Source: a virus
IMG/VR virus record: IMGVR_UViG_3300043436_003157
Location: 1-34,662 of that record
Strand: one strand, 5' to 3'
Length of the DNA: 34,662 bases
The translations under genes and the position numbers were made by a program. Shown here piece after piece: positions 21,914-34,662 of the stretch (position 1 is the stretch's first letter; the number at the start of each line of letters is the position of its first letter). The notes beneath the pieces are model-generated. The model made no database searches. It saw only the letters and a program-made list of their open reading frames with translations, and was not told the origin of the DNA.

Positions 21914-22291
21914 TTAACAACAAGCAGTTTCTGAAATAAAACTTGGTTGAATGTTGATATACAACTCTTCTCTGATTGGAAGAATTAAATTACCTTCATC
22001 GTTCTTTATTAAGAACTGACCAACATACCTACCTGGTGTGTTTGTATCTCTTGAAGTAAATTTATAGTATATATAATATTCAGGTGTTGCGCCCAATGGT
22101 AAGATAAGTGAAACGATTTCACAAGGGGCTGACACAATTTTAGGAATTTCAGTTTCGACATCAATCATTGTGAAGAAAATAGTAGAAACTTCTAAGTCCT
22201 GCATTAGTTCTAAGTAACCCGCCCTACCATCTTTAACTACTTGCATTTTTAATACAGGTAGTGTTGCATTTTGTTTAATAAAGAATTCCAT
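21914..22291 (-). CDS. Small beta-rich phage protein, possibly baseplate-upper-protein-like (125 aa)
   Basis: The 125 residues form alternating strands: FFIKQNATLPVLKMQVV, STIFFTMIDVET, IVSAPCEIV, YYIYYKFTS, RYVGQFLIK and a closing LILPIREELYINI. This strand order resembles the N-terminal domain of BppU-type baseplate upper proteins (low-confidence pattern match). It ends ETACC with two terminal Cys. The ATG at 22291 is part of a perfect 10-bp palindrome that also contains the TATTTAT element, so its expression may be controlled by structure. It follows the glycosyltransferase operon and precedes the polymerase. A small virion protein is the best guess. Confidence 0.65.
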   Translation of the reverse strand: MEFFIKQNATLPVLKMQVVKDGRAGYLELMQDLEVSTIFFTMIDVETEIPKIVSAPCEIVSLILPLGATPEYYIYYKFTSRDTNTPGRYVGQFLIKNDEGNLILPIREELYINIQPSFISETACC

Positions 22292-22312
22292 AACAATAAA
22301 TATATTGTTATG
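22289..22312 (-). promoter_or_regulatory. Perfect palindrome over the start codon of the 125-aa gene, with TATTTAT in its centre
   Basis: CATAACAATA (22289-22298) and its exact complement (22303-22312) flank AATA, making a 10-bp stem with a 4-base loop. The start codon is in one arm, the upstream gene's stop codon (22308-22310) in the other, and TATTTAT (22296-22302) spans the centre, 4 nt from the ATG. It may be an operator for a dimeric regulator or an RNA hairpin hiding the start codon. Confidence 0.55.
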
Positions 22313-23984
22313 ACTCTTTTCTTAAACTTCTTTCGTAATGTTCAAATCTATCGTGTTCTGTTGGTGTCATAAGTAATAAACCAGGATACAATTCACCCTT
22401 CTTAACTAACTGATACATATGACTCATCCATGTCTGTTCGAATGGATGTCCCCATGTTGTGTCTAAAAACATTTTTTGGTTTCCTGTTCTTGTAACGATT
22501 TGAGGCCAATTACAATAATACACTTCACCCGTTACATATGGAATACCTTGGAATGAACTAACCGAATCATACACCGCTCTCGGAGCATTTGGGTCTAGTC
22601 CTTGAACAGGTAATCTGTCTTTACCTGGCCAATATTTTTCTCTAACACTTTGAGGTACATTATACCAAGACCATTGAGTTCCGTTATCGCCAAAAAATTC
22701 ACTGTAATTTAGTTTTAAGAAATCAAAGTTTTCTTTTTTAACAATCTGTAATGTTTTTGAAAATAAATTTGGGACATATCTGTTAAAACCATTTCTACAC
22801 ACATCACCTTCTTTTGGATAAAAAAACATGTCATCCTCAAAAAACAAATAAAAATCCAAATCTGTTTTATTTTGGAAATGTTCTGCAATCCACTGACGAC
22901 CACCACAAATCCCTAAATTATCTTTCTTAATGTGTTCAAAACCATTTTCTTCACATAATTTAGCATAATCATTAAATGTCGACTCATCACTTGAATTATC
23001 TAACAAATACTTTTTAGTTTTTAATAAATAATCTTTGTCATAAGCATTCATCGAATCAATTAAAGTTGAAAATTGTTTTGGACTATTAAATGTAATAACA
23101 TATAAACCAACTTTATTAATGTCTAATGTGTTCGTTTCTTTATGAATATTTTCTGATTTAGGCTTTAGGTCATCATTTTTTAAATCTTCAAAAAATTTAC
23201 CAACTAAACCATTAGATTCAATTTCAAAATAATTAACCAAATCAGAATGTTTATAACACATAATACTAAATATCGATTCTTCAGTACCCATATAACCTTC
23301 TTCTAAGGTTGATTTTAATAAACCATAATAAATCCCATTAATATCACCAATTGTATGTTTTGGTCCACCAAAGAATCCACCTCTTGCAACTTTATTGACT
23401 TTAGCACCTGCAATTGAATTTAACTTATTATACTCAAATCCGTGTATTTCATTTTCGGCATCATAAGGAAAACAAATAAAAGAAAACTTGGAGATATATT
23501 TTGATAAATTATTAAGAACTTTATCATGTGTAAAATATCCTTGGTGAACTGTATTTGTTAAACCACCGTCAATCCAAAACATGTGTTCAGAATTAAATCG
23601 GTCCATGATTTTTGCGTCATGTAATAAAAATACTTTAGACATAACTAACGGATTGTAGTTTTCTAATCTACCTTGAGTTGATTCTTTTAACCAACCTGCT
23701 AAGTTTTGCCAATTTTCATTAGTTCTGATTTTTTGAATTTTATCAAAAAACTCAGACTCTCTAAACCAAGACATTGGTCTAAGTATGAATTGGGTGTTTT
23801 CCTCACTTCGTCTTTCAAAAACAAACTTTTGAAGTTCTTCATCTCCAAAAATAATCATGTTTTCGTCACACTTCAAAAGTTGTTCAAACTTATCTAAATA
23901 ATGTTGGTAAGGTCTTGACCATCCTTCGGACAATTCCCCTCGACCAATATCCCATATTCCTGTTACTAAAGTTATATTACTCAT
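22308..23984 (-). CDS. Two-domain glycosyltransferase: HtrL/YibB-like plus GT-A (GT2-like) domain
   Basis: The 558-residue protein has two parts. Residues 1-270 begin ITLVTGIWDIGRG and contain HMFWIDGGL (D139) and RGGFFGGPKHT, matching the HtrL/YibB family linked to surface-sugar loci. Residues 291-558 begin VGLYVITFNSP and carry YLFFEDDMFF (E383, D384, D385), the acidic nucleotide-sugar/metal motif of a GT-A fold. A Trp/Tyr-rich acceptor-side region follows, with a His pair near the end (TEHDRFEHYE). It would use activated sugars in the cytoplasm. The start lies in an 8-base overlap with the preceding gene's stop (ATGAGTAA), so it is translationally coupled to the other transferases. The two domains may make sequential linkages on one acceptor (inference). 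Confidence 0.8.
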   Translation of the reverse strand: MSNITLVTGIWDIGRGELSEGWSRPYQHYLDKFEQLLKCDENMIIFGDEELQKFVFERRSEENTQFILRPMSWFRESEFFDKIQKIRTNENWQNLAGWLKESTQGRLENYNPLVMSKVFLLHDAKIMDRFNSEHMFWIDGGLTNTVHQGYFTHDKVLNNLSKYISKFSFICFPYDAENEIHGFEYNKLNSIAGAKVNKVARGGFFGGPKHTIGDINGIYYGLLKSTLEEGYMGTEESIFSIMCYKHSDLVNYFEIESNGLVGKFFEDLKNDDLKPKSENIHKETNTLDINKVGLYVITFNSPKQFSTLIDSMNAYDKDYLLKTKKYLLDNSSDESTFNDYAKLCEENGFEHIKKDNLGICGGRQWIAEHFQNKTDLDFYLFFEDDMFFYPKEGDVCRNGFNRYVPNLFSKTLQIVKKENFDFLKLNYSEFFGDNGTQWSWYNVPQSVREKYWPGKDRLPVQGLDPNAPRAVYDSVSSFQGIPYVTGEVYYCNWPQIVTRTGNQKMFLDTTWGHPFEQTWMSHMYQLVKKGELYPGLLLMTPTEHDRFEHYERSLRKES

Positions 23985-24858
23985 ATATTCTATTAAATTC
24001 TTCTAAAATTCTAAAAAAGCTTTTATTTAATTCAAACATCTCATCTGTAACACCTGCAGGTGCGTTATCTCTACACCACCAAATATCAAAATGTTTACGT
24101 TCAAATAATTCTTTATGGTTATAATACATTAATGTCATTATATTTTCTTCGTGAGGTAAACCTTTATCCTCAGTTATTACATTTTTAGTATAAGTTTCAA
24201 ATAATGTTACAATCTCGTCCCACTTATCTCTATGACCTCCAAACAATCCTCCAATAATGTGAAGGCCTCTCTCCCAATTAGTATACCACTTAGGGTCTAA
24301 TGTACCTGACCAATAATTTCGGTCATTTTCTTTTCCAAGAATTAAAAATTTATCACCAGTATCTTCAATTACGTTGTTTAAAAAATTGTTGTTAAATAAT
24401 GTTGATTCGTAGTATCTTTGTTCAGGATGAGTTCCTGTCAAATATTTTACAGGGATTAACCCACAATGTGATAGACCAGCATCAATCCAATAATAATAAT
24501 CATAAGATTTATCTTCATTCCACCACCAATGGAATTTACTATATTGTACCTCAATACATCTATCAGATTTTTTAGTCATTTCAACATCTTTATATTGATT
24601 GATTAAATCTTTGAATTTTGTATTCGCAATATCAAACACTTGAAACTTCAATTTATCTGGTGATATACCATGTGTTTCATAAAAAAATGAGATTAATGAT
24701 GGTAATTCTCTATCTGATGTGTAACATAAGAAATCGGCATTAGTCATTTTTAAGAGTGATAATAAACTATATCTATAATGACCTCCTCTACCAATTCGTC
24801 CACCATACTCAGTACCATACAAATCGCTGTATATTGATGTAATAAATTTAACTGACAT
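23977..24858 (-). CDS. HtrL/YibB-like glycosyltransferase-type protein
   Basis: The 293-residue protein begins with strand KFITSIYSDLYG and carries SDRCIEVQYSKFHWWW, YYYWIDAGLSHCGLIP (D126), a conserved GLHIIGGLFGGH block and LPHEENIMTLMYYNH. The WIDAGLSH and GGLFGGH segments parallel WIDGGL and RGGFFGG of the neighbouring two-domain protein, so the two share a fold and probably a common ancestor. The family resembles GT-A sugar transferases, with the Asp of WID as likely metal ligand (inference). Its start overlaps the GT25-like gene by 11 bases and its end overlaps the next start by 8. Donor and acceptor sugars cannot be told from sequence. Confidence 0.72.
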   Translation of the reverse strand: MSVKFITSIYSDLYGTEYGGRIGRGGHYRYSLLSLLKMTNADFLCYTSDRELPSLISFFYETHGISPDKLKFQVFDIANTKFKDLINQYKDVEMTKKSDRCIEVQYSKFHWWWNEDKSYDYYYWIDAGLSHCGLIPVKYLTGTHPEQRYYESTLFNNNFLNNVIEDTGDKFLILGKENDRNYWSGTLDPKWYTNWERGLHIIGGLFGGHRDKWDEIVTLFETYTKNVITEDKGLPHEENIMTLMYYNHKELFERKHFDIWWCRDNAPAGVTDEMFELNKSFFRILEEFNRIYE

Positions 24859-25582
24859 ATGTAAATTCTTTGTGTTGTTTATTTGTTTTTAATTCGTGTG
24901 TTAATGTACCGTGTAAATATTCTGAAGGTATTTTATATGGACTATATAGATTCCAATTATAAGTTTGGGTATAAAAATTATTGTATTGTCCTTGAGATAC
25001 ATCAGACCAACTACTCATTTGCGGAGCAATTGGTAATATTGGAGAATAACTTGGTTTGATGGGATAAACAAATTGATAGATATAATCGTCAATTGCATAA
25101 TAACCTAAAATTTCCTGTTTTTCCATTTCCAAAACATTATCATAAATTGAATTATGATAAATCATCATGTTAGTTGCAAATATACCTCTTTCGTGTTCTT
25201 TCTTTGGTGGTAAATTTGTTATGTCTAAAAATAATGGTTGTTCTATACTACGATTAACTGGTCGATTTAATGTTGGAGAAAGATTAATAACACCAAATTC
25301 AAATTCGCCTGATTCGGTTTCAATTTTATTAATTAAATCTTTTGAGTAGGGTAAAAAAGTACAATCATCCTCAATCACCATGACCGAATCATACCTTCGT
25401 TCTTTGGCGATTTTAATGATTTGAGTATGGGATAGAGTACAACCACCATGATTATTTAAATCAACTGCTTTGAATACTTCATAATCCCATCCCATATAAT
25501 CCATTTCTTTTTGGATATGTTCTAATCGGTCAGGTCGTCTTTCTAAATTAACGACAAACTTAGGGATACTCGTAATATTCAT
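24848..25582 (-). CDS. Glycosyltransferase family 25-like protein
   Basis: The 244-residue protein opens with KFVVNLERRPDRLEHIQKEM, the GT25 signature of Asn-Leu followed by Arg/Asp. It continues with GGCTLSHTQI (47-56) and VMVIEDDCTFLP (E71, D72, D73), the acidic donor-binding motif. GT25 enzymes add galactose or glucose in lipooligosaccharide and collagen-type glycosylation. The protein is near the usual size for bacterial members. Its ATG shares one base with the stop of the upstream gene and its stop overlaps the next gene by 11 bases, so all four transferases form one translationally coupled operon. Targets could be the phage's own Pro/Thr-rich proteins or host glycans. Confidence 0.85.
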   Translation of the reverse strand: MNITSIPKFVVNLERRPDRLEHIQKEMDYMGWDYEVFKAVDLNNHGGCTLSHTQIIKIAKERRYDSVMVIEDDCTFLPYSKDLINKIETESGEFEFGVINLSPTLNRPVNRSIEQPLFLDITNLPPKKEHERGIFATNMMIYHNSIYDNVLEMEKQEILGYYAIDDYIYQFVYPIKPSYSPILPIAPQMSSWSDVSQGQYNNFYTQTYNWNLYSPYKIPSEYLHGTLTHELKTNKQHKEFTYVS

Positions 25583-26847
25583 TAACTAACGTGATTGTGG
25601 GTTAATCTACCTGTGATTCTATCACACCATCCTTTAGATTCTGAGTAAGGCCATACAACCCAGTATGAAGGCATTTCATCGGTTTGGAATTCTCTCCATA
25701 CTTTACAGTATTTGTCAGGGTCTCTCATAAAACCTGCAATTTCATTTTTGTCTGCATCTTTTCTAAATAAAGTTTCATCTTTATCGTTATGAAATGCAAC
25801 TACCCAAAATTCATAATCTGTTTCAGGAACTTGAGAATATCCGATATCAATACAGTGTTTGAACATCATACAGAAACTATCTTTCCATTCTTGTTCTGTT
25901 TCAAAATTGTATGGGTTTGGTGGGTAATTTTTATCTAATGTGTGTTTGTCAATTGCTCTTTTTGAAAAAAGAATACCTGCGTATTTTTCATAATCAGTCA
26001 AAGTTCTAACTGGTCCAAATCCATAAGGCCCATCATGACCTTCTTGTTTTTCACCATCCATACCAAATAGTTTTCTATTTGTTAAATGCGAATGGGTATT
26101 TCGTTGACCCCAAGTTTTATCATCATCCCATTGTTTTGTTCTACCTTTACGAGTGTATTCGTGGAAAACAACAGGAATGTGTGGGTGAAACAAATCATAA
26201 CCCCAAGTGTAAGCTCTTGCAGCGATTGAAATCTCTTCACCGTGGAAATAATATTCAGGGTTGTGTTGAACTTCAGTTGAAAACTCACCTAATGTAAAAC
26301 AGAAGTGAGCCGAGTAGAATCTTGCGGTCACGGGTTTTTTCATTTCTTTCCATCTTGGAATTGTTTCAGGTAAGAAGAATACCGCACCTTCAGGAATGAA
26401 TCGGTCAAACACCATTCTCCATGCATCTTGAGCTCTTCCTGCAGGGTCATTATCGGGGTCAAAAGAAGGAACGTAGCCCGTAAGTAGAGGCTTCTTATAC
26501 CCGTCCTTCTGTAACCCCTTTATCATTTTGATAAGGATATCATCCCAATCCTTAACAAATCTCATGTGAGAATCAATTTGTAATGTGTATGTTTCACCTT
26601 TGTAAAGTTGTTGAACTTGATGTCTTGCCCAACAGACACCTTTGGCATCTTGATAAGGAATATCTAAGATTCTAAATCTTTTGTCCTTTCTATACTCATC
26701 TAAATTATCAAACCCATCTTCGTCGCTATATTGTCTTGCAATACCGATAACAAGGTTATTTGGTTTTTTGGCATTTGCCAACATGTCTTTAATTGTTGGG
26801 ACCAACTGAGGGTCTCTGTAAGCCGCGATTTGAACGAAAATTTTCAT
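25582..26847 (-). CDS. GlcNAc-transferase of the Skp1-GnT (GT60-like) type
   Basis: The 421-residue protein begins IFVQIAAYRDPQLVPTIKDM, followed by GVCWARH, then TYTLQIDSHMRFVKDWDD with D92-x-H94 as donor/metal motif. FYSAHFCFTLGEF, YYFHGEEISIAARAYTWG and VFHEYTR come next. This is the pattern of the GlcNAc-transferase family that includes Dictyostelium Skp1 GlcNAc-transferase, which modifies hydroxyproline on protein. It is the first gene of the transferase operon and lies directly downstream of the Pro/Thr-rich protein genes, past a terminator. A protein O-glycosyltransferase acting on those repeats is the attractive reading (inference). No exact TATTTAT precedes it; the leader holds TATAAAATAATAATAC next to the ATG. 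Confidence 0.78.
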   Translation of the reverse strand: MKIFVQIAAYRDPQLVPTIKDMLANAKKPNNLVIGIARQYSDEDGFDNLDEYRKDKRFRILDIPYQDAKGVCWARHQVQQLYKGETYTLQIDSHMRFVKDWDDILIKMIKGLQKDGYKKPLLTGYVPSFDPDNDPAGRAQDAWRMVFDRFIPEGAVFFLPETIPRWKEMKKPVTARFYSAHFCFTLGEFSTEVQHNPEYYFHGEEISIAARAYTWGYDLFHPHIPVVFHEYTRKGRTKQWDDDKTWGQRNTHSHLTNRKLFGMDGEKQEGHDGPYGFGPVRTLTDYEKYAGILFSKRAIDKHTLDKNYPPNPYNFETEQEWKDSFCMMFKHCIDIGYSQVPETDYEFWVVAFHNDKDETLFRKDADKNEIAGFMRDPDKYCKVWREFQTDEMPSYWVVWPYSESKGWCDRITGRLTHNHVS

Positions 26848-26873
26848 GTATTATTATTTTATACATAAAAATA

Positions 26874-26903
26874 AAAAACCCTCCACGAAGGTGAAGGGTT
26901 TTT
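26874..26903 (-). terminator. Rho-independent terminator between fibre and glycosyltransferase genes
   Basis: Stem AAAAACCCT/AGGGTTTTT (9 bp) with an inner CAC/GTG pairing around GAAG. In the minus-strand transcript it is followed by a U-rich tract (TTTTTTATTTTTAT). It could also work on the other strand. It separates the 391-residue fibre gene from the transferase operon. Confidence 0.85.
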
Positions 26904-26924
26904 GAGTATATTAATTTTGTTTTT

Positions 26925-28100
26925 TTAGATACAAGCTGTTGGGTCGACACCCGTAACTTCACCCGCTCCTCCTGATACAAGGAATGCAGCAGTTCCGTTA
27001 GAGTAGTAACCGTTAGCAACAGGTATTGTTAACGCAGTATTAAAGTATAAGAATTCACCTGCATTTGGACCAGGTCCTCCAGCAACTGTACCGTAAATTG
27101 TGTTAGGTGCTGAAATAAAGTCGGTACATGCATCATTAGCTGTTCCTCCAGTACCTAAACTATAAGTGTAGTAACCAAATGTTGCAGTTGGTGTTGTTGT
27201 TGGGGTTGCCGTTGGTGTTTCAGTTGTAGTAACTGTTGTAGTATTTGTTGGTGTTTGAGTATTTGTTGGGGTTGCCGTTGGTGTTTCAGTATTTGTTGGT
27301 GTTGGTGTTAAAGTTTGACATAATGAGCCAAGTCCAACCGTATTACCGTTCGAATCAAGTTCAACAACATAATTACCATTTTTATAGAAACCTGTCATAT
27401 CAACAGTAGGTCCTGCAGTTGCAACATTCCAAAATTCGGAACATAAATCAAACTGTGGATTATTACCGTAAATCGTTGAAGTACTATTGTATTGACCACA
27501 AGCATCATCTTGTGTCGCTCCGTAATAGACTGTAAATGAAACTCTAGCGATAGTAGGTGTAGGTGTATTAGTTGGTGTACCAGTGTTAGTAGGTGTTGGA
27601 GTTGCGTTAGGAGTACCTGTTTGAGTTTGAGTTGGAGTATTAGTTGGGGTTTCAGTATTAGTTGGTGTTACGGTTACATTAGGGGTTCCTGTTTGAGTTT
27701 GAGTTGGTGTGTTAGTAGGAGTTTCAGTATTTGTTGGTGTAGGTGTTGATGTTGGAGTTTCAGTGTTAGTCGGTGTTGGAGTGTTAGATGAAGTATTTGT
27801 TGGTGTTTGTGTATTAGTTGCAGTAACACTTGGTGTTGGTGTATTAGTTGGAGTAGTCGATGGTGTCATTGTAGGTGTTGGTGATGGGTAAACAGGTGGA
27901 AATACACCGTTATTAACCAATACTACACTACTCTGAAATAAAGGTGCAATTGAATACGTATTATTAATTAACCAAATATTTTTAGTTTGGTTTGGATTTA
28001 ATTCAACTTGGTACTCCCAAAGTGAATCGTCACATCTTCTATAATTAAAGTTTATTATAGTTGAACCCGTGTTCGTCAAAGTATATTTACTACATGCCAT
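26925..28100 (-). CDS. Pro/Thr-repeat modular fibre-like protein (391 aa)
   Basis: The domain order is clear. Residues 1-70 are a small beta domain (MACSKYTLTNTG, CDDSLWEYQVEL, NQTKNIWLI). Residues 73-184 are an almost pure Pro/Thr/Asn/Glu/Gln linker built on [12 protein letters not shown]. Residues 185-260 are a beta module with Cys near both ends, and 260-306 a second Pro/Thr linker. Residues 307-391 are a more divergent copy of the module. No signal peptide or membrane segment is seen, as expected for a virion component. The Thr-dense linkers resemble mucin stalks and could carry O-glycans. The N-terminal domain is duplicated as the 70-residue neighbour. A terminator follows, then the glycosyltransferase operon. 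A tail-fibre or adhesin role is inferred from architecture. Confidence 0.8.
   Translation of the reverse strand: MACSKYTLTNTGSTIINFNYRRCDDSLWEYQVELNPNQTKNIWLINNTYSIAPLFQSSVVLVNNGVFPPVYPSPTPTMTPSTTPTNTPTPSVTATNTQTPTNTSSNTPTPTNTETPTSTPTPTNTETPTNTPTQTQTGTPNVTVTPTNTETPTNTPTQTQTGTPNATPTPTNTGTPTNTPTPTIARVSFTVYYGATQDDACGQYNSTSTIYGNNPQFDLCSEFWNVATAGPTVDMTGFYKNGNYVVELDSNGNTVGLGSLCQTLTPTPTNTETPTATPTNTQTPTNTTTVTTTETPTATPTTTPTATFGYYTYSLGTGGTANDACTDFISAPNTIYGTVAGGPGPNAGEFLYFNTALTIPVANGYYSNGTAAFLVSGGAGEVTGVDPTACI
27607..27750 (-). repeat. 72-bp tandem repeat in the 391-aa fibre gene
   Basis: Two adjacent 24-codon units (27607-27678 and 27679-27750) encode [20 protein letters not shown]-type linker with only a few base differences. 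Confidence 0.75.
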
Positions 28101-28120
28101 CGTTTTATTTTCTTTTAAAT

Positions 28121-28127
28121 ATAAATA
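28121..28127 (-). promoter_or_regulatory. TATTTAT element before the 391-aa fibre gene
   Basis: Sense TATTTAT 20 nt upstream of the ATG at 28100, in the 29-base gap after the 70-codon gene. Confidence 0.5.
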
Positions 28128-28129
28128 CT

Positions 28130-28342
28130 TTAGTTTGGTGGAAATACACCATCATTTATTAAAATAACATTAGGTACGAATAACGAAGCAATAGAATAAG
28201 AGTTATCAATCAACCAAATGTTTTTTGTCTGATTTGGTTCTAGTTCAACTTGATATTCCCACATTGTGTCGTCACATCTTCTATAGTTGAAATTCACTTG
28301 AGTTGTTCCAGTGTTTGTTAGTGTGTATTTGCTACAGGCCAT
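28130..28342 (-). CDS. Stand-alone copy of the fibre N-terminal domain (70 aa)
   Basis: All 70 residues align without gaps to the first 70 of the adjacent 391-residue fibre protein; by eye about 54 are identical. Both begin MACSKYTLTNTG, share NFNYRRCDD and PNQTKNIWLI, and end GVFPP. Here the frame stops after GVFPPN, just where the Pro/Thr linker begins in the larger gene. It is either a duplicated fibre that lost its shaft or a deliberate short subunit, for example one that fills attachment sites without a long arm. Its leader (28343-28375) is A-rich in sense, with no TATTTAT element, so it may depend on the upstream transcript. Confidence 0.75.
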   Translation of the reverse strand: MACSKYTLTNTGTTQVNFNYRRCDDTMWEYQVELEPNQTKNIWLIDNSYSIASLFVPNVILINDGVFPPN

Positions 28343-28375
28343 TTTATTTTGTGTTTAATTTTTTTATTTCTGTTA

Positions 28376-29875
28376 TTAGCATAATACACCAAATCCAATA
28401 GTAAAACCATTTAAATCAAGTTGAACTACATAACCATTATTTTGATAGTAACCTGACATATTAATTGTTGAACTACCGTTAGGTACATTCCAAAATTGAG
28501 TTGATAAATCAAATTGTGGGTCATCACCATAAATTGTTGTTGATGGGTTTACTTGATTACAAGCGTCTAATTGAACACTACCTGGGTAAACGGTAAATGA
28601 AATTCTACTATGAGTTGGGGTAGGTGTTGGGGTTAATCCAACAGTTACACTTGGCGTTACAGTTACAGTATTTGTTGGAGTACTTGTTGGTGTTTGAGTG
28701 TTAGTAATGGTTGGTGTATTAGTTGGAGTTTCACTTGGAGTTTCTGTATTGGTCGGTGTATTAGTTGGAGTTTCCGTATTAGTCGGTGTATTAGTTGGAG
28801 TTTCCGTATTGGTCGGTGTATTAGTTGGAGTTTCAGTTGGAGTTTCAGTGTTTGTTGGTGTTGGTGTTTGAGTTTCAGTGTTTGTAGGTGTGTTAGTTGG
28901 CGTTTCCGTATTTGTTGGTGTTTGAGTCGGTGTTTCAGTTGGTGTCGGTGTATTACTTGATGTAACCGATGGTGTTGTCGTTTGAGTTGAAGTATTTGTT
29001 GGAGTTGCGGTTGGAGTTGGTAAAGGACATCCACCTAAATAAGTTGCAAAACCATCACCATCAACAATAATAACACTTTGAGCACAATAGGTTAGAGTGT
29101 CAAAAACTTCTAAGAAGAAATCGTAAGGGAATCCGTCACAATCAATACCCGCAAACGTTGTTTGATTTGTTGTTCCACCAAATAATAAATAAGTTTTACA
29201 TAGTGAGTTAGTTGGTGTTTGAGTGTTAGTTGGTGTGTTAGTTGGGGTTTCTGTATTAGTTGGTGTTTGAGTAGGTGTCGATGTTGAAGTTTCAGTATTC
29301 GTAGGGGTATTAGTAGGTGTTTCAGTATTAGTAGGGGTATTAGTTGGAGTTTCAGTATTAGTAGGGGTATTAGTTGGTGTTTCGGTGTTAGTAGGTGTAA
29401 TACTTGGAGTAACTGTCGGTGTTGGTGTATTACTTGCAGTTGCGGTTGGAGTTAATCCAATGGTAACGGAAGGTGTTGGTGTTAAAGTACTAGTTGGTGT
29501 TACGGTTGGTGTTTGAGTATTTGTAGGTGTTTGAGTGTTAGTTTGTGTTTGAGTCGGTGTTGCGGTTTGACTACTAGTTGGGGTTGGTGACAACCCAAAT
29601 GTACTAGTTGGTGTTGGAGTTATTGTTGGCGTTGTTGTTTGTGTTACTGTTGGTGTAGGTGTTACTGTTGGTGTTGGTGCTGGTACATTTAATGAATATG
29701 TGTAACCATATGTTGGAACATAACAATCATATATACCGTAATAATAACTTGATATATAGTTAAATGGAAAAACTTGAGTACCTAAATTAATTGTACCTCC
29801 TGTATCGGGAAAATACGTAACATTTGTGGTTTGACCACTCAAATTATCACTTAAAATTCTTACACCTAACGCCAT
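28376..29875 (-). CDS. Pro/Thr-repeat modular fibre-like protein (499 aa)
   Basis: Residues 1-65 are a unique beta domain starting MALGVRILSDNLSG. Residues 66-220 are a Pro/Thr/Asn/Glu linker. Residues 222-282 form a globular module with four Cys (LCKTYLLF, IDCDGFPYDFF, TYCAQ, LGGCP). Residues 283-420 are a second linker, and 421-499 a copy of the shared beta module (ISFTVYPG, ACNQ, TIYGDDPQFDL, GYYQNNGYVVQLD, ending GVLC). About 60% of the protein is linker, with Thr at nearly every second position. No secretion signal is seen. The ATG at 29875 is 4 nt from a TATTTAT element. It is probably a fibre or virion-surface adhesin with an extended, possibly glycosylated stalk (inference). Confidence 0.8.
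   Translation of the reverse strand: MALGVRILSDNLSGQTTNVTYFPDTGGTINLGTQVFPFNYISSYYYGIYDCYVPTYGYTYSLNVPAPTPTVTPTPTVTQTTTPTITPTPTSTFGLSPTPTSSQTATPTQTQTNTQTPTNTQTPTVTPTSTLTPTPSVTIGLTPTATASNTPTPTVTPSITPTNTETPTNTPTNTETPTNTPTNTETPTNTPTNTETSTSTPTQTPTNTETPTNTPTNTQTPTNSLCKTYLLFGGTTNQTTFAGIDCDGFPYDFFLEVFDTLTYCAQSVIIVDGDGFATYLGGCPLPTPTATPTNTSTQTTTPSVTSSNTPTPTETPTQTPTNTETPTNTPTNTETQTPTPTNTETPTETPTNTPTNTETPTNTPTNTETPTNTPTNTETPSETPTNTPTITNTQTPTSTPTNTVTVTPSVTVGLTPTPTPTHSRISFTVYPGSVQLDACNQVNPSTTIYGDDPQFDLSTQFWNVPNGSSTINMSGYYQNNGYVVQLDLNGFTIGFGVLC
28741..28830 (-). repeat. 30-bp tandem repeats in the 499-aa fibre gene, distal linker
   Basis: Three consecutive 30-base units (28741-28770, 28771-28800, 28801-28830) differ at only two positions and encode a 10-residue TPTNTPTNTE unit. 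Confidence 0.8.
29291..29380 (-). repeat. 30-bp tandem repeats in the 499-aa fibre gene, proximal linker
   Basis: Three 30-base units (29291-29320, 29321-29350, 29351-29380) encode the same TPTNTPTNTE-type decapeptide but use a different base pattern from the distal array. The two arrays therefore expanded separately. Confidence 0.8.
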
Positions 29876-29879
29876 GTCA

Positions 29880-29886
29880 ATAAATA
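29880..29886 (-). promoter_or_regulatory. TATTTAT element before the 499-aa fibre gene
   Basis: Sense TATTTAT with only TGAC between it and the ATG at 29875. Confidence 0.5.
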
Positions 29887-29921
29887 CCTATTTGTTTTGT
29901 TTTATACCTTTTAAAAAAAAT

Positions 29922-30491
29922 TTAACCACAGATTCCTTTATTAATAATTAAAGTCCCACCAATTTGAATAAATGTTGAGCCATTTGAAATCGTAAAATTG
30001 GCGTTAATCGGCGGAATAGTTAACTGACTATTACCATAAACATGGTCACCAATCTCTAATTGACTGAATGGTTTTTCGGAATAAATAGTAACGTTAGCAG
30101 GATTACCAAAATACGTTGAACCGCAAACATCTTGATAATAACCACCAGTTCTTAAATTGGCCATATAAACAATAACAGGTGTTACCGTTGGTGTTGGAGT
30201 TTGAGTTGGAGTTACGGATGTTTGAGTTGGAGTTGGAGTTACGGATGTTTGAGTTGGAGTTGGTGTCACAGTTGGTGTTGGAGTTGTTGAAGGACATAAT
30301 CCCATATTAACAACATCTAAAGGTGCTGCATAATTTTCAACATATAAATCTTTAGCGCAGACATAACTTGTTTGTAATGGTTCTACGGGACTAACACTAA
30401 TAATGTCAGTACAACCTGTCCATCTATAATATCCTGTTTGGACATTATTATAATTTGTTATTCTATAGTAATTACAGTCTGTGGTGTACAT
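29922..30491 (-). CDS. Pro/Thr-repeat modular fibre-like protein (189 aa)
   Basis: This is the smallest multi-domain member of the fibre set. Residues 1-70 are a Tyr/Cys-rich beta domain (MYTTDCNYYRITNYNN, YYRWTGCTD, CAKDLYVENY). Residues 71-107 are a short Pro/Thr/Gln linker with a 9-residue TQTSVTPTP repeat. Residues 108-189 are a divergent copy of the shared beta module, again with Cys near its start (DVCGSTYFG) and at the end (KGICG). The start lies 2 nt after the stop of the 1,376-residue gene, so translation is probably coupled. It may be a short fibre or a clip between long fibre and baseplate (inference). Confidence 0.78.
   Translation of the reverse strand: MYTTDCNYYRITNYNNVQTGYYRWTGCTDIISVSPVEPLQTSYVCAKDLYVENYAAPLDVVNMGLCPSTTPTPTVTPTPTQTSVTPTPTQTSVTPTQTPTPTVTPVIVYMANLRTGGYYQDVCGSTYFGNPANVTIYSEKPFSQLEIGDHVYGNSQLTIPPINANFTISNGSTFIQIGGTLIINKGICG
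30211..30264 (-). repeat. 27-bp tandem repeat in the 189-aa fibre gene
   Basis: Two adjacent 27-base units (30211-30237, 30238-30264) encode QTSVTPTPT-type nonapeptides. Confidence 0.7.
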
Positions 30492-30493
30492 TT

Positions 30494-33400
30494 TTATAAT
30501 CCATATTTTGATTTGTCAGCATTATAGTTTTGTAAAACTTGGGTAGAGGTAAGTGATGAGTTGTATAAACGAGTTATACCAATTTTTCCATCAAACCATT
30601 GAGAAAACTCACCACCATTGTAACTGCCAATGTAAAGTGGGTTAGACGTGTTTAGTATACTTGCCAAACTATGGCTCACACTTCCTATACTTACACCATT
30701 TACAAATGTTTCAAGTGTATTAGACGCAATGTTAGTAAACACATAAACTATCTGATACCAAGTACCAATCGTCCCAACGTAGTTTGTACTATTAACAAAC
30801 AATGATGAACCACTACCACTACCTGAACCTAATTGAGCGTAGTATGTGGTATTAGTTGTTCTGATACTATAACTTACATCTATAGTTAACCCTCCATTAT
30901 CAAATTTTCCAAGTACAACATCATTACCTAAAACCGATTGATTAACCCACACTTCCATAGTCCAATCTCCACTTCCTGGTTCTAATAATGGATTATCGGC
31001 AACTCGAACTTGTGATGAAGTTCCATTATATGAAAAATATGGTGATGTATATGTAATACCCGACATTGAACCATTTAATCCATTTCCTGATAAATCATTA
31101 ATTGTTGTACCAGTACCAGGGTAACTTGATAAATTACTTGGGTCATAATATAAAACAAGATTAGTGGTTACGGGAACTGCAGGTGTTGAGGTTGGAGTTG
31201 GACTTGAAGTTGTTGTGTTAGTTGGCGTAGAGGTATTAGTATTTGTTGGTGTTACTGTTGGCGTACTTGTTGTTGTAGGAGTTGATGTTGGTTCCACAAA
31301 TCTTGGAGCCAAGTAATTGTATTGTTGTGTTATTTCAGCAAGGTTTAATTGTCTGTTATAGAAATACATGTTGGCAACATGTCCCCAAGGTTGAGCAACA
31401 ATATCATTATTACCCCATCCCCAATGTGTTGTTCCACCAGCACCCTCATTAATTGTGCTTCCCACCTGTGAACCATTTATGTAGAATGTTTGAGATGTGT
31501 TTGTTCCAACTACCGCAAACTGAACCCAAACGCCAGCTGAAGATGCTACATCATATCCTGAGCTTACAAATCCTGTTGCCCAATATCCTAATGTACTTGT
31601 TCCATTAGGTATTGTAATTGGTGTGATTTTAGGAGGACCCTTTGTATAAAGTACTGTTCTAAATCCAGCATTACTAGGTATCAATCTTGCCCAAGTGATA
31701 TATGTGTATCCCGAATTTGGTAATAAAGGTCCTGTTAAGTTGTAATCAACTCTATTATTTCCTGTTGTACAATCAAAACATTTTACACCATTAAGAACTG
31801 TGTAAGTTGCACCAATTAATGTATGGTCATACCCACCTGTAATATCAAAAACAGTTGTTCCTGTTCCAGGGTAACTTGAGCTTTCATATGCGTCAAGTTG
31901 AATAACCAAACCTGAAGTTACAATACTTGGTGTTGAGGATGGTGTATTGGTTGGAGTATTAGTGTTTGTTGGTGTTGGAGTAATGATTTGTGTTTCAGTT
32001 GGTGTTAATGTATTAGTTGGTGTTGAGGTTTCGGTTGGTGTATTAGTAGGAGTCTCAGTTGGTGTTGGTGTGTTAGTTGGTGTTGGTGTCTCAGTTGGAG
32101 TGTTAGTTGGTGTGACTGACGGAACAACACTACAAGAACTAAATCCGCCCATCTCAAAACCATTTGAGTCTAATTCAACAACTAACCCACTATAACTATA
32201 ATATCCTGACATATCACCAATAACGGTTCCATTTGGATTATTATAGAATTGTGTATTAGTATCAAAAGATAAATTTTCGGCATATATTACTCCAATAACA
32301 CCACTATCACAAGCAATATTTGCGGTTGAACCTGAAGTTATATTAAAAACATCTAAGGCATTTGTTGGGGTTGGTGTTTGTGTTTGGGTTGGTGTTTGTG
32401 TTGGAGTTTCGGTTGTAGTTGGTGTAGGAGTTTCGGTTGTTGTTGGTGTGTTTGTTGGCGTTTCTGTATTTGTCGGAGTTTGAGTTACCGTTGGTGTGTT
32501 TGTTGGCGTTTCTGTATTTGTCGGAGTTTGAGTTACCGTTGGTGTGTTTGTATTTGTCGGAGTTTGAGTTACCGTTGGTGTGTTTGTTGGCGTTTCTGTA
32601 TTTGTCGGAGTTTGAGTTACCGTTGGTGTAGGGGTTAATGTTGAGGTAGGTGTTGGTGTTGGTGTAGATTGAATTAGTTCATAATACAAATCATTTGCAG
32701 GTATACTAATATATGATAAATCATTATCAGGTATTGTTATGTAATACAAATCGTTTGACGGTATTACAATTCTACAATTAAGACAATCAGGATTTAATAA
32801 ATTATATGTGTCTTTTAGTATTTTAAAATTATGTTTAATTTGAGCGGCATTTAGTGGTTCGGTGTACATTCTAAACGCACTGATATCTCCAATCATACTA
32901 CCACCAAACAATTCTTCTAACCTAATTTGGGTTGTTAAACCTGAATAAATTGTATTGTCTAAATCATAAGTCGTTAAACACTCAGGGTCTTGTTGATATT
33001 GAAGTCCACTTAAATCAACTGGACATCCACCTGAGAATGTTAAGTTATCGTGAAGACCTTGGGTACCACCACCAATTGAAATGTTATATCCAACACCAAT
33101 TTGCTTTTCTTTTGGAGTATTCAATAATCTTGGAATGATTTCTTCAAAGTTTTCAACAACCATGAATAACTTTCCATTCACATAAAACTTAAGTGTTCCT
33201 AATCTATATTTTTGTTCTTCGGTCCACATATCTGTGAATGTCACAACTTCAGTTGAAGGTGGGTCATAAGGAGTTTCCCTTGTAATAGGAGGTTCAATTA
33301 AACTAACACTTCTACCTTCAATTGTTGCAAAATATACGTCTTTAACAAGCAGACCTAATCCACCTTTATCATATAGGTCACAAGTATCTAACCATTCATA

Positions 33401-34624
33401 TCTTTGGAATACGGTATCAATTTGAACCCAATGTTCTACATTTGGATAAGTTGTACCCGAACAATCATCAAAGATACCTCTTGTTGAACACCATTCAGTT
33501 ACCGAAGTACCTGTAACATAAGTTATACCTGTCAAACAAGTTCCAGTGCTTTCACATCCACCAGTTATTCTATATGTCTTAACACATAATCTTGGACTAC
33601 CCGTATCACCACTTAATCTTAATGATAATGCATTTGAAACTTCATCATACAGTGGGTCTTTTTCAGGGTATTGTGCCGTAGTTGTACAATCACACGCACA
33701 TCCACAAGTGCAATTTGTAATGGTACCACCTGATGGTTGGTATACTTGAAGACATTCTGAAGATGTGTTTGCACTACTTGCACAACCACAAGTGTGCATA
33801 CAAGTTAAACCTGATGTAACCCTTGTATATCCCGAATCTTGTTTTGGACTACCGTCGGCATAATGATAAAATTTGTTTTCAGCTCTTGCTCCCATATAAA
33901 AGAATGTTCCTTTATTATTAGGGTACCTTGCATTTAGACCAACTGAAGTATCACCAGTCCATCTATATTTTAACATGAATTCAGTTGTCCAACCTAAACT
34001 AACTCTTTCAGGGAATACTTGGTAATCATAACCCGCAATCTTATAAAATCCTTGATAAAACCCACCTTGTAGGTTTGCAACATATCCAATATCTCCACCA
34101 ACATTTGTGTACGACAAATCATAAGTGTATGAGTTATCATTCCATAATCTATTTTGAGTTGTAGTAAAACCTGTAATAGGGTGAAGTTTCATCCTCCTAT
34201 CATACTTGTATCTACTAAACTTATCTGTAATATTTGTGTATAACCCTGTGGTTATTTCTATAGTTTCTCCCGACATGTTTTGAACAAGTCCGTTGTCAAT
34301 TCCTGTTAAACCAATATCACATAATTGAGTGACGATTGGACAAAAATTTGGGTCAGTATCCGTTGGGTTCCAATAATTTTCCGATACAATAGTATCCGCA
34401 CTAAAAACACAAGGCGAAACTTGGCATAATGTGGTACCACTACTATTAAAATCAAATTTAAATGGCATTCTATTACCATCGTCTTCACCAATTAATAATG
34501 GTGAAAAAATAACTTCTTGGTCGTAATCTTTTTCATCTGAAGCAAGACATAAGTCGGTCACTTCATTGACAGGTTTTAGACCAAATCTTCTAAAATTATA
34601 TTGATTAATATTTTGATATGCCAT
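30494..34624 (-). CDS. Giant fibre/adhesin with Cys cluster, Pro/Thr linkers and LamG-like domains (1,376 aa)
   Basis: Residues 1-650 are a unique N-terminal part that may attach to the virion. It contains nine Cys within about 40 residues (near 275-320) and a segment resembling the end of a LamG fold ([17 protein letters not shown]). It ends with three IPxNDLxYI-type repeats. Residues 653-754 are a Pro/Thr linker with 16-residue repeats, 755-833 the shared beta module and 834-900 another linker. Residues 900-1111 are a LamG/concanavalin-like domain ([22 protein letters not shown]), 1112-1151 a linker, and 1152-1376 a second LamG-like domain ([25 protein letters not shown]). LamG-like folds usually bind glycans, so the C-terminal end is the likely receptor-binding tip (inference). 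The ATG at 34624 lies 9 nt from a TATTTAT element. Confidence 0.85.
32455..32630 (-). repeat. 48-bp near-perfect tandem repeats in the giant fibre gene
   Basis: Two full identical units (32455-32502, 32503-32550), a unit shortened by 12 bases (32551-32586) and a further copy (from 32587) encode a 16-residue Thr/Pro/Val/Gln/Asn/Glu pattern. The in-frame 12-base loss points to recent slippage or recombination. Confidence 0.85.
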
Positions 34625-34660: not shown

Positions 34661-34662
34661 AA

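Follow-up and report, generated by a model that had tools for sequence, protein, structure and literature searches.

Glycosyltransferase (GT) families GT27 and GT60 have a DxH motif in place of DxD, and both glycosylate Ser/Thr of polypeptides in O-linkage (PMC7185993); statements taken from the articles cited here by PMC number refer to the accessible parts of those articles. Within GT60, TcOGNT1 attaches GlcNAc in alpha-linkage to Thr of mucin-like proteins in Trypanosoma cruzi (PMC9472816). Glycosylation of virions by phage-encoded enzymes was described in 2023 for mycobacteriophages, whose GTs modify the C-termini of capsid and tail-tube proteins (Freeman 2023, as cited in PMC12619734). 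Here, we analysed the 34,662-base virus record IMGVR_UViG_3300043436_003157 (the whole stretch is called the window below), the minus strand of which carries four fibre genes with Thr/Pro stalks and, after them, four overlapping GT genes headed by a GT60 member. Like TcOGNT1 and Skp1 Gnt1 of Toxoplasma, both of which are GT60 alpha-GlcNAc-transferases, the encoded enzyme belongs to Pfam family PF11397 and has the DxH motif, and TcOGNT1 resembles it further in acting on Thr of mucin-like proteins. Unlike them, it is phage-borne, with its presumed acceptor and a cassette of exchangeable genes as neighbours, and its activity is predicted from sequence and a structural model. As in the mycobacteriophages, phage-encoded GTs would act on virion proteins; however, the presumed targets here are Thr/Pro stalks, and a GT60 enzyme and a variable cassette are present. 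Since GT60 is paired with Thr/Pro stalks in further phages and also in bacteria, the data suggest that some phages coat their own fibres with sugar, using strain-specific glycans.

The first gene of the operon (25582–26847, minus strand) is proposed to encode a polypeptide O-glycosyltransferase. The earlier note on this DNA had described its product as GT60-like, and the Pfam search bore this out: the protein matched PF11397 "GlcNAc" with an E-value of 6.7e-67 and 226.9 bits against a gathering cut-off of 21. In PHROGs, it was filed under phrog_24687 "glycosyltransferase" (E 6.7e-167). The DxH motif that stands for DxD in GT27 and GT60 is present as D92-S-H94; D92, H94, and 28 further positions were invariant in 19 viral GT60 sequences, whose identity to the window enzyme went down to 25%. 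The AlphaFold model (pLDDT 88.7, pTM 0.84) showed a predicted GT-A fold akin to that of GT27, the targets belonging to one family. Among the 50 matches listed in the VIA structural comparison, the top 29 were all polypeptide GalNAc-transferases (Z 19.1–21.9; next match, Z 17.4), with superpositions spanning 256–280 amino acids (aa) of the N-terminal domain. The top 29 chains in Foldseek were the same GalNAc-transferases (E 1.3e-9 to 1.3e-8), followed in row 30 by RmlT (E 1.3e-8). These 29 structure entries represent one family and hence count as one observation. The predicted fold is nearest to the mucin-type polypeptide GalNAc-transferases, the closest solved structures, which share the DxH motif; however, sequence identity to the GT27 structures was only 11–15% in the structural alignments, and a phmmer search of the GT60 protein against PDB sequences gave no match. 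On the evidence of sequence and model, the enzyme is proposed to place the first sugar on stalk Thr.

The presumed acceptors are encoded by the four fibre genes, all of them on the minus strand. The largest (30494–34624, 1376 aa) has a conserved 650-aa N-terminal part, two Laminin_G_3 (ConA-like lectin) stretches, and three Thr/Pro stalks, located at 32309–32710 (134 aa, 55 Thr), 31898–32164 (89 aa, 30 Thr), and 31130–31339 (70 aa, 22 Thr). It is followed by a 189-aa fibre gene (29922–30491) with one stalk at 30138–30338 (67 aa), a 499-aa gene (28376–29875) with stalks at 29156–29737 and 28574–29059 (356 aa, 145 Thr), and a 391-aa gene (26925–28100) with stalks at 27507–27929 and 27150–27356 (210 aa, 82 Thr). 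Together, the stalks comprise 926 aa with 353 Thr (38%), 160 Pro (17%), and 8.6% Asn, i.e., an extended Thr/Ser/Pro-rich repeat of the kind that marks a mucin-type glycoprotein. Thr alternates, its probability at +2 from another Thr being 0.83 and at +1 only 0.07, in agreement with the description of long linkers with Thr at nearly every second residue in the earlier note. The Thr codons are mixed (ACA 158, ACT 138, ACC 35, and ACG 22), and the stalks are therefore not one slipping DNA word; tandem DNA repeats do occur in the region (44 overlapping rows).

Conservation of the stalk was assessed for the 189-aa fibre by way of 54 distinct relatives, which were chosen by length and Thr/Pro content and are thus biased towards conserved stalks. 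In pairwise comparisons, the pairs being non-independent, synonymous differences were found at 54% and replacements at 8.5% of linker Thr codons, versus replacement rates of 12.8% for linker Pro and 15.4% for Thr outside the linker. A comparison of codons within the arrays (lags 4, 6, and 10) was discarded, since the array period is shared by Thr but not by Pro, and only the orthologue comparison was kept. All four fibre genes matched phrog_15511 (function unknown) over part of their length in PHROGs. By eye, a short recurring domain (..DAC..TIYG..F..Y.NG..V.LD..G...G..C) spaces the stalks in several of the fibre genes at 26925–34624; the Pfam scan of the window proteins gave it no name.

The earlier note had named in advance, as a finding that would speak against it, the lack of any association between these transferases and Thr/Pro-repeat fibres in a survey. 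Such an association was observed in both viruses and bacteria. With a DNA pattern for PTPTPTPTP, at least 120 viral stretches were retrieved, and the reversed pattern also gave at least 120, 118 of them new; PF11397 was searched in 100 loci of each set. GT60 was found in 10 of the 99 distinct Pro-Thr-repeat records and in none of the 100 reversed-pattern records (Fisher p 7e-4), or in 9/98 (p 0.0015) when the one record from the same lineage as the window was left out. On contigs longer than 40 kb, the counts were 9/36 versus 0/30. When the first 50 records of each set were compared, GT60 occurred in 6 versus 0 (p 0.03) and the general GT family PF00535 (GT2) in 14 versus 8 (p 0.23). The ten GT60s on Pro-Thr-repeat records were 28–85% identical to that of the window. 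Half of them (5/10) lay within 2 kb of the nearest strict Thr/Pro site, where 1.0 was expected (p 0.0016); within 5 kb, the count was still 5/10, with 2.0 expected (p 0.03). The converse test used records that had not been chosen by Thr/Pro, namely 16 of 19 such GT60 records and 50 of 118 controls picked towards longer contigs, and showed TPTPTP DNA in 13/16 versus 11/50. By length, this corresponded to 7/10 versus 11/41 at 20–110 kb and 6/6 versus 0/5 above 110 kb. A first converse count of 17/20 was partly circular, as four of the 20 records had been found by the Thr/Pro pattern, and was set aside.

A genome scan gave 177 GT60 relatives, from which 79 bacterial loci were kept; 40 of them, mostly on contigs longer than 58 kb (L492 was missed) and chosen after the Thr/Pro listing, were compared with 68 same-contig controls. 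Thr/Pro stalk genes were present within ~8 kb of GT60 in 9/40 loci versus 0/68 controls (p 7e-5), and in 8/39 versus 0/67 without the borderline contig L518. When the loci were collapsed to 24 self-made taxon groups, the result was 7 versus 0 (p 0.005). A looser Thr/Ser/Pro measure gave 12/40 versus 3/68, and Ser-rich and Ala/Gly-rich control measures showed no excess at these 40 loci over the 68 controls. Thr/Pro matches in 17 of the 79 listed loci were not used, as they likely include antisense frames. In the proteobacterium L505, KTPSPTHTNAPT repeats adjoin GT60, and in L518 (Magnetospirillum) PTTTSAPTTTQA repeats occur with it. In Burkholderiaceae (L469, L473, L477, L478, L486, and L493), a protein of ~780–1040 aa is encoded on the other strand some 4 kb from GT60, and its stalks change completely between species (PTPT, DETP, PSEEP, STPEP); the proteins of L473, L478, and L486 share the start VTVSS.AMPQLLG, and those of L469, L477, and L493 were equated by position and size. 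Some of the bacterial GT60 contigs may be of phage or prophage origin. One alphaproteobacterial metagenome-assembled genome (L520) contained a 2448-aa open frame with four tandem GT60 domain matches.

The GT block of the window spans 22308–26847, and its neighbouring genes overlap by 1, 11, and 8 bases. The gene order given in the earlier note, four overlapping sugar-transfer genes directly downstream of the fibres, is thus real, whereas its interval for the locus, 25582–34624, was too narrow, as the operon extends outside it to 22308. All three genes following GT60 are on the minus strand. The exchangeable middle cassette begins with 24848–25582, which encodes a GT25-type enzyme (Pfam E 1e-12; 48.8 bits, gathering cut-off 24), for which a weak match to PHROG 2835 "glucosyltransferase" (E 7.5e-6) covered 31 residues only. 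Its second gene (ORF3, 23977–24858) had no Pfam match at E 0.01 and encodes a putative GT that may be distantly related to HtrL/YibB; 10 of the 99 members of its gene cluster matched the YibB2 profile. The last gene (22308–23984), which forms the constant 3' end of the cassette, encodes a two-domain enzyme designated YibB2, with an HtrL_YibB N-half (residues 3–252, E 4.6e-21; 76.1 bits, gathering cut-off 24.1) and a C-half with a predicted GT-A fold. The model of this tandem GT leaves the packing of its domains uncertain (pTM 0.59); the C-half superposed on B4GALNT1, POMGNT1, and GnT-I (Z 14.7–16.4), GTs of the blood-group type were matched by the N-half (Z 13), and the top Foldseek rows were the multi-domain collagen-modifying LH3 with low overall TM-scores of 0.23–0.30. 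The single match of YibB2 to PDB sequences (E 0.34) was judged to be due to chance. The GT25-like and HtrL/YibB-like genes named in the earlier note were therefore recovered, whereas its separate "GT2-like" enzyme proved to be the C-half of the HtrL/YibB gene. On the bacterial contigs L444, L445, L446, L450, L451, L452, and L458, a YibB2-type gene was seen right after or close to GT60, as in phages.

A viral scan yielded 432 stretches encoding a GT60 relative, the best 80 loci of which were used. A Thr/Pro gene was located upstream of GT60 on the same strand in 75 of these 80 (median gap, 85 bases); among the other five, the Thr/Pro gene of L032 overlaps the mechanically assigned start of GT60, and L030, L031, L046, and L079 have less than 1 kb of contig upstream of GT60. 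The YibB2 gene was present in 77/80. Conversely, 56 of 77 fibre-anchored loci, a set sharing many contigs with the GT60-anchored one, contained GT60. Of the 21 that did not, 17 end at most 2.7 kb from the fibre gene and one has no N-terminal fibre match; L135 and L150 continue with further fibre-region genes, and the last, L120, is described below.

In 116 loci (64 distinct GT60+YibB2 pairs), the genes between GT60 and YibB2 fell into 51 clusters (single linkage, 30% identity) and were arranged in 19 orders. The commonest order was GT25 followed by ORF3, as in the window (82/116 loci and 43/64 distinct pairs), and 16 of the 19 orders were found in one distinct pair only. Identity to the window was 82–100% for GT60 (median 88), 78–100% for the polymerase (86), and 40–100% for GT25 (57). 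Pfam matches at E 0.001 were obtained for 17 of 30 cluster representatives (30 of the 51 were scanned) and included FkbM methyltransferases, GT10, GT11, GT7C, GT2-like and PLOD-type GTs, a DegT aminotransferase, and HAD plus nucleotidyl transferase; a group-1 GT and an O-methyltransferase-like protein were below the cut-off. GT60 and the YibB-type gene flank a set of exchangeable sugar genes, an arrangement that resembles the serotype loci of bacteria. Because these two are fixed and the middle genes exchangeable, the first step in building the sugar chain is probably constant, with the variation lying further out.

Among named phages, Xanthomonas phage XacN1 and Stenotrophomonas phages RAS14 and CM1 encode GT60s 43–45% identical to that of the window (45% in XacN1). 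The GT60 operon of XacN1 holds a carbamoyltransferase and a YibB2-type gene and converges on baseplate genes. In XacN1 and RAS14, GT60 lies near a large tail-region gene, of 3313 aa by the baseplate wedge in the former and 3138 aa in the latter, each with one C-terminal Thr/Pro stretch at the threshold used; TPTPTP DNA occurs 29 times in the XacN1 genome and 19 times in that of RAS14. In contrast to the window, the hosts of these phages are known and the stalks beside the operon are short, and XacN1 has an annotated carbamoyltransferase and no tail fibres seen. At least two glycoproteins were reported from proteomics of XacN1, and its own GTs ORF328 and ORF334 were proposed as their makers (PMC5852040). 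The general idea that phage GTs make these glycoproteins was therefore already put forward in that article, the accessible text of which mentions neither stalks nor GT60. Among the papers covered by our literature search, none joined a jumbo phage with GT60, and PF11397 was named in one, on a brown alga. Several phages (L161, at 34792–37089; L423; L425; L165) have a carbamoyltransferase beside GT60, which is annotated in XacN1 and was recognized in the others by eye from similar starts; carbamoyl decoration of the sugar by such an enzyme is possible.

Taken with the sequence and structural models, these results make it fairly probable that the phage O-glycosylates its own fibre stalks, with GT60 starting the chain and the strain-specific cassette finishing it. 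Such self-glycosylation had been proposed in the earlier note, and the viral and bacterial surveys, as well as the proximity of the GT60 model to GalNAc-transferases, lend it support. The acceptor, the donor, the order of transfer, and the benefit are what we infer; the genes, the repeats, the predicted fold, the motif, the association, and the cassette structure are the observations behind them. The operon at 22308–26847 would represent a virion-glycosylation locus. In the host cytoplasm, GT60 would use a nucleotide sugar to place the first sugar on stalk Thr, which would probably be alpha-GlcNAc or a HexNAc similar to it. The exchangeable middle enzymes together with the constant two-domain YibB-type enzyme would then extend and cap this sugar. 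The product would be a stiffened, mucin-like bottle-brush stalk between lectin-like tips, with a strain-specific outer glycan. The coat might provide stiffness, protease resistance, a decoy, or adhesion.

Several observations weigh against glycosylation of the fibre stalks. A strong intrinsic terminator (26874–26903, minus strand; hairpin z −5.45) parts the last fibre gene from GT60 and is followed by an A/T-rich stretch containing TATAAAATA; a separate promoter may thus serve the GT operon. Because of this terminator, the fibres and the GTs, although neighbours, probably do not form one transcript, and the possibility of a single transcript was dropped. In XacN1, no tail fibres were seen by electron microscopy and no fibre homologues were found, and the accessible text names none of its glycoproteins (PMC5852040); without visible tail fibres, XacN1 is a weaker model for fibre coating, which lowers our confidence slightly. 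By the strict pattern, 4/10 of the viral GT60/stalk pairs were 12–30 kb apart, and G063, scored at 14.7 kb, has looser Thr/Pro genes less than 5 kb away on both sides. The viral counts treat records as independent, which is only partly true, and some of the association may reflect common descent of the phages. Moreover, GT60 was not detected in 89 of the 99 Thr/Pro-repeat records, many of which are short or fragments. In G104, the polymerase, ORF5, and stalked fibre-like genes are adjacent with no GT operon between them, one stalk having 396 aa; G098 has the same arrangement with a short stalk (63 aa). The partial records G052 (100 kb) and G027 (95 kb) have stalks of 278–284 aa and no GT60, and each carries a GT25-like gene and also GT2 genes. 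In L120, no GT60 was found within 8.4 kb of the fibre gene. Since stalked relatives without GT60 exist, a Thr/Pro fibre does not depend on the enzyme; these phages may use other GTs or host enzymes, or may have bare stalks.

Among the alternatives, the one that survives best, although we consider it improbable, is that the GTs modify host surface glycans, by which other phages would be excluded or progeny freed, and that their place near the fibres reflects a role of both at the cell surface. Host-converting GTs are a well-known feature of phages (PMC12619734). Pfam describes GT25 in terms of lipopolysaccharide (LPS) biosynthesis, and the cassette, with its exchangeable middle, is similar to O-antigen loci. 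HtrL/YibB, too, is linked to LPS. Bacterial O-antigen and capsule loci have constant ends and exchangeable sugar genes in the middle, as does the cassette of the window lineage; however, the phage cassette has no membrane-like gene save one borderline case. The gtr-type kit of lysogenic conversion consists of a membrane flippase, a polyprenyl GT, and an integral-membrane GT, and by hydropathy no membrane component of this kind was found in the operon. None of the four window GTs has a membrane-like segment (maximal 19-aa hydropathy, 0.88), and of the 190 distinct cassette proteins of the relatives one reaches 1.6, which is borderline, and none 2.0. No flippase or membrane-bound GT was found between GT60 and YibB2 by hydropathy, the rest of the genomes not having been searched. 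Host-surface modification also sits poorly with a first enzyme nearest to polypeptide GTs and with an association that is with Thr/Pro proteins, bacterial contigs included.

Somewhat less probable again is glycosylation of virion proteins by the operon in which the main targets are the capsid, the tail tube, or the lectin domains instead of the stalks. The mycobacteriophage enzymes that act on capsid and tail-tube C-termini favour this view, as does XacN1, the glycoproteins of which the accessible text does not name and which seemingly has no tail fibres; however, a capsid target leaves unexplained why GT60 tracks Thr/Pro stalks in distant settings. It is very unlikely that the stalks act simply as spacers and that GT60 just travels with the same phage lineages, with no functional link, since the many Thr/Pro-repeat records without GT60, which agree with this, are set against a spacing closer than chance and against recurrence on bacterial contigs, in 7/24 taxon groups versus 0/24 same-contig controls. 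The weakest alternative, glycosylation of modified bases of phage DNA, draws on the nearby DNA polymerase gene, the weak PHROG 2835 match of the GT25 gene, and the large group, apparently an oligosaccharide, on YerA41 DNA (PMC9023294), and is opposed by the family and fold of GT60, which point to a polypeptide acceptor, and by the cutting of XacN1 DNA by BssHII, NaeI, and SpeI (PMC5852040).

If glycosylation of the fibre stalks is correct, it would represent a new phage surface chemistry, i.e., stiff, protease-resistant, variable fibres with their own initiating enzyme and an exchangeable glycan cassette. For bacterial PF11397 genes, described in Pfam merely as "Glycosyltransferase (GlcNAc)," it would provide a testable substrate, the nearby Thr/Pro-repeat protein. 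The chances seem about even that GT60 and a Thr/Pro-stalk protein together make up a general prokaryotic equivalent of mucin-type O-glycosylation, common to phages and bacteria, which in the lineage of the window has become a "glycotype" locus. In such a locus, the fixed initiator GT60 and the fixed terminal YibB-type enzyme would stand on either side of a cassette in which GTs, FkbM methyltransferases, fucosyltransferase-like enzymes, and a sugar aminotransferase are exchanged, and the mucin-like coat would differ between phages of one lineage much as the serotype does between bacteria.

Other features of the region were also recorded. A gene for a small protein of 125 aa (21914–22291, minus strand) lies between YibB2 and the DNA polymerase gene; its homologues carry a fused Thr/Pro stalk in the related phages L422, L427, and L282, and it is possibly a fibre or baseplate adaptor. 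The polymerase matched 35 named-phage records weakly, with less than 27% identity among the 20 matches listed. At 34661 on the minus strand, starting 37 bases upstream of the large fibre gene, the window contains TATAAATA, which we take to be a T4-type late promoter word and which suggests late expression. In the viral loci L135 and L150 (1273–7300, minus strand), divergent look-alikes of sugar genes, GT2-like and nucleotide-sugar dehydrogenase-like, were noticed by eye upstream of the fibres.

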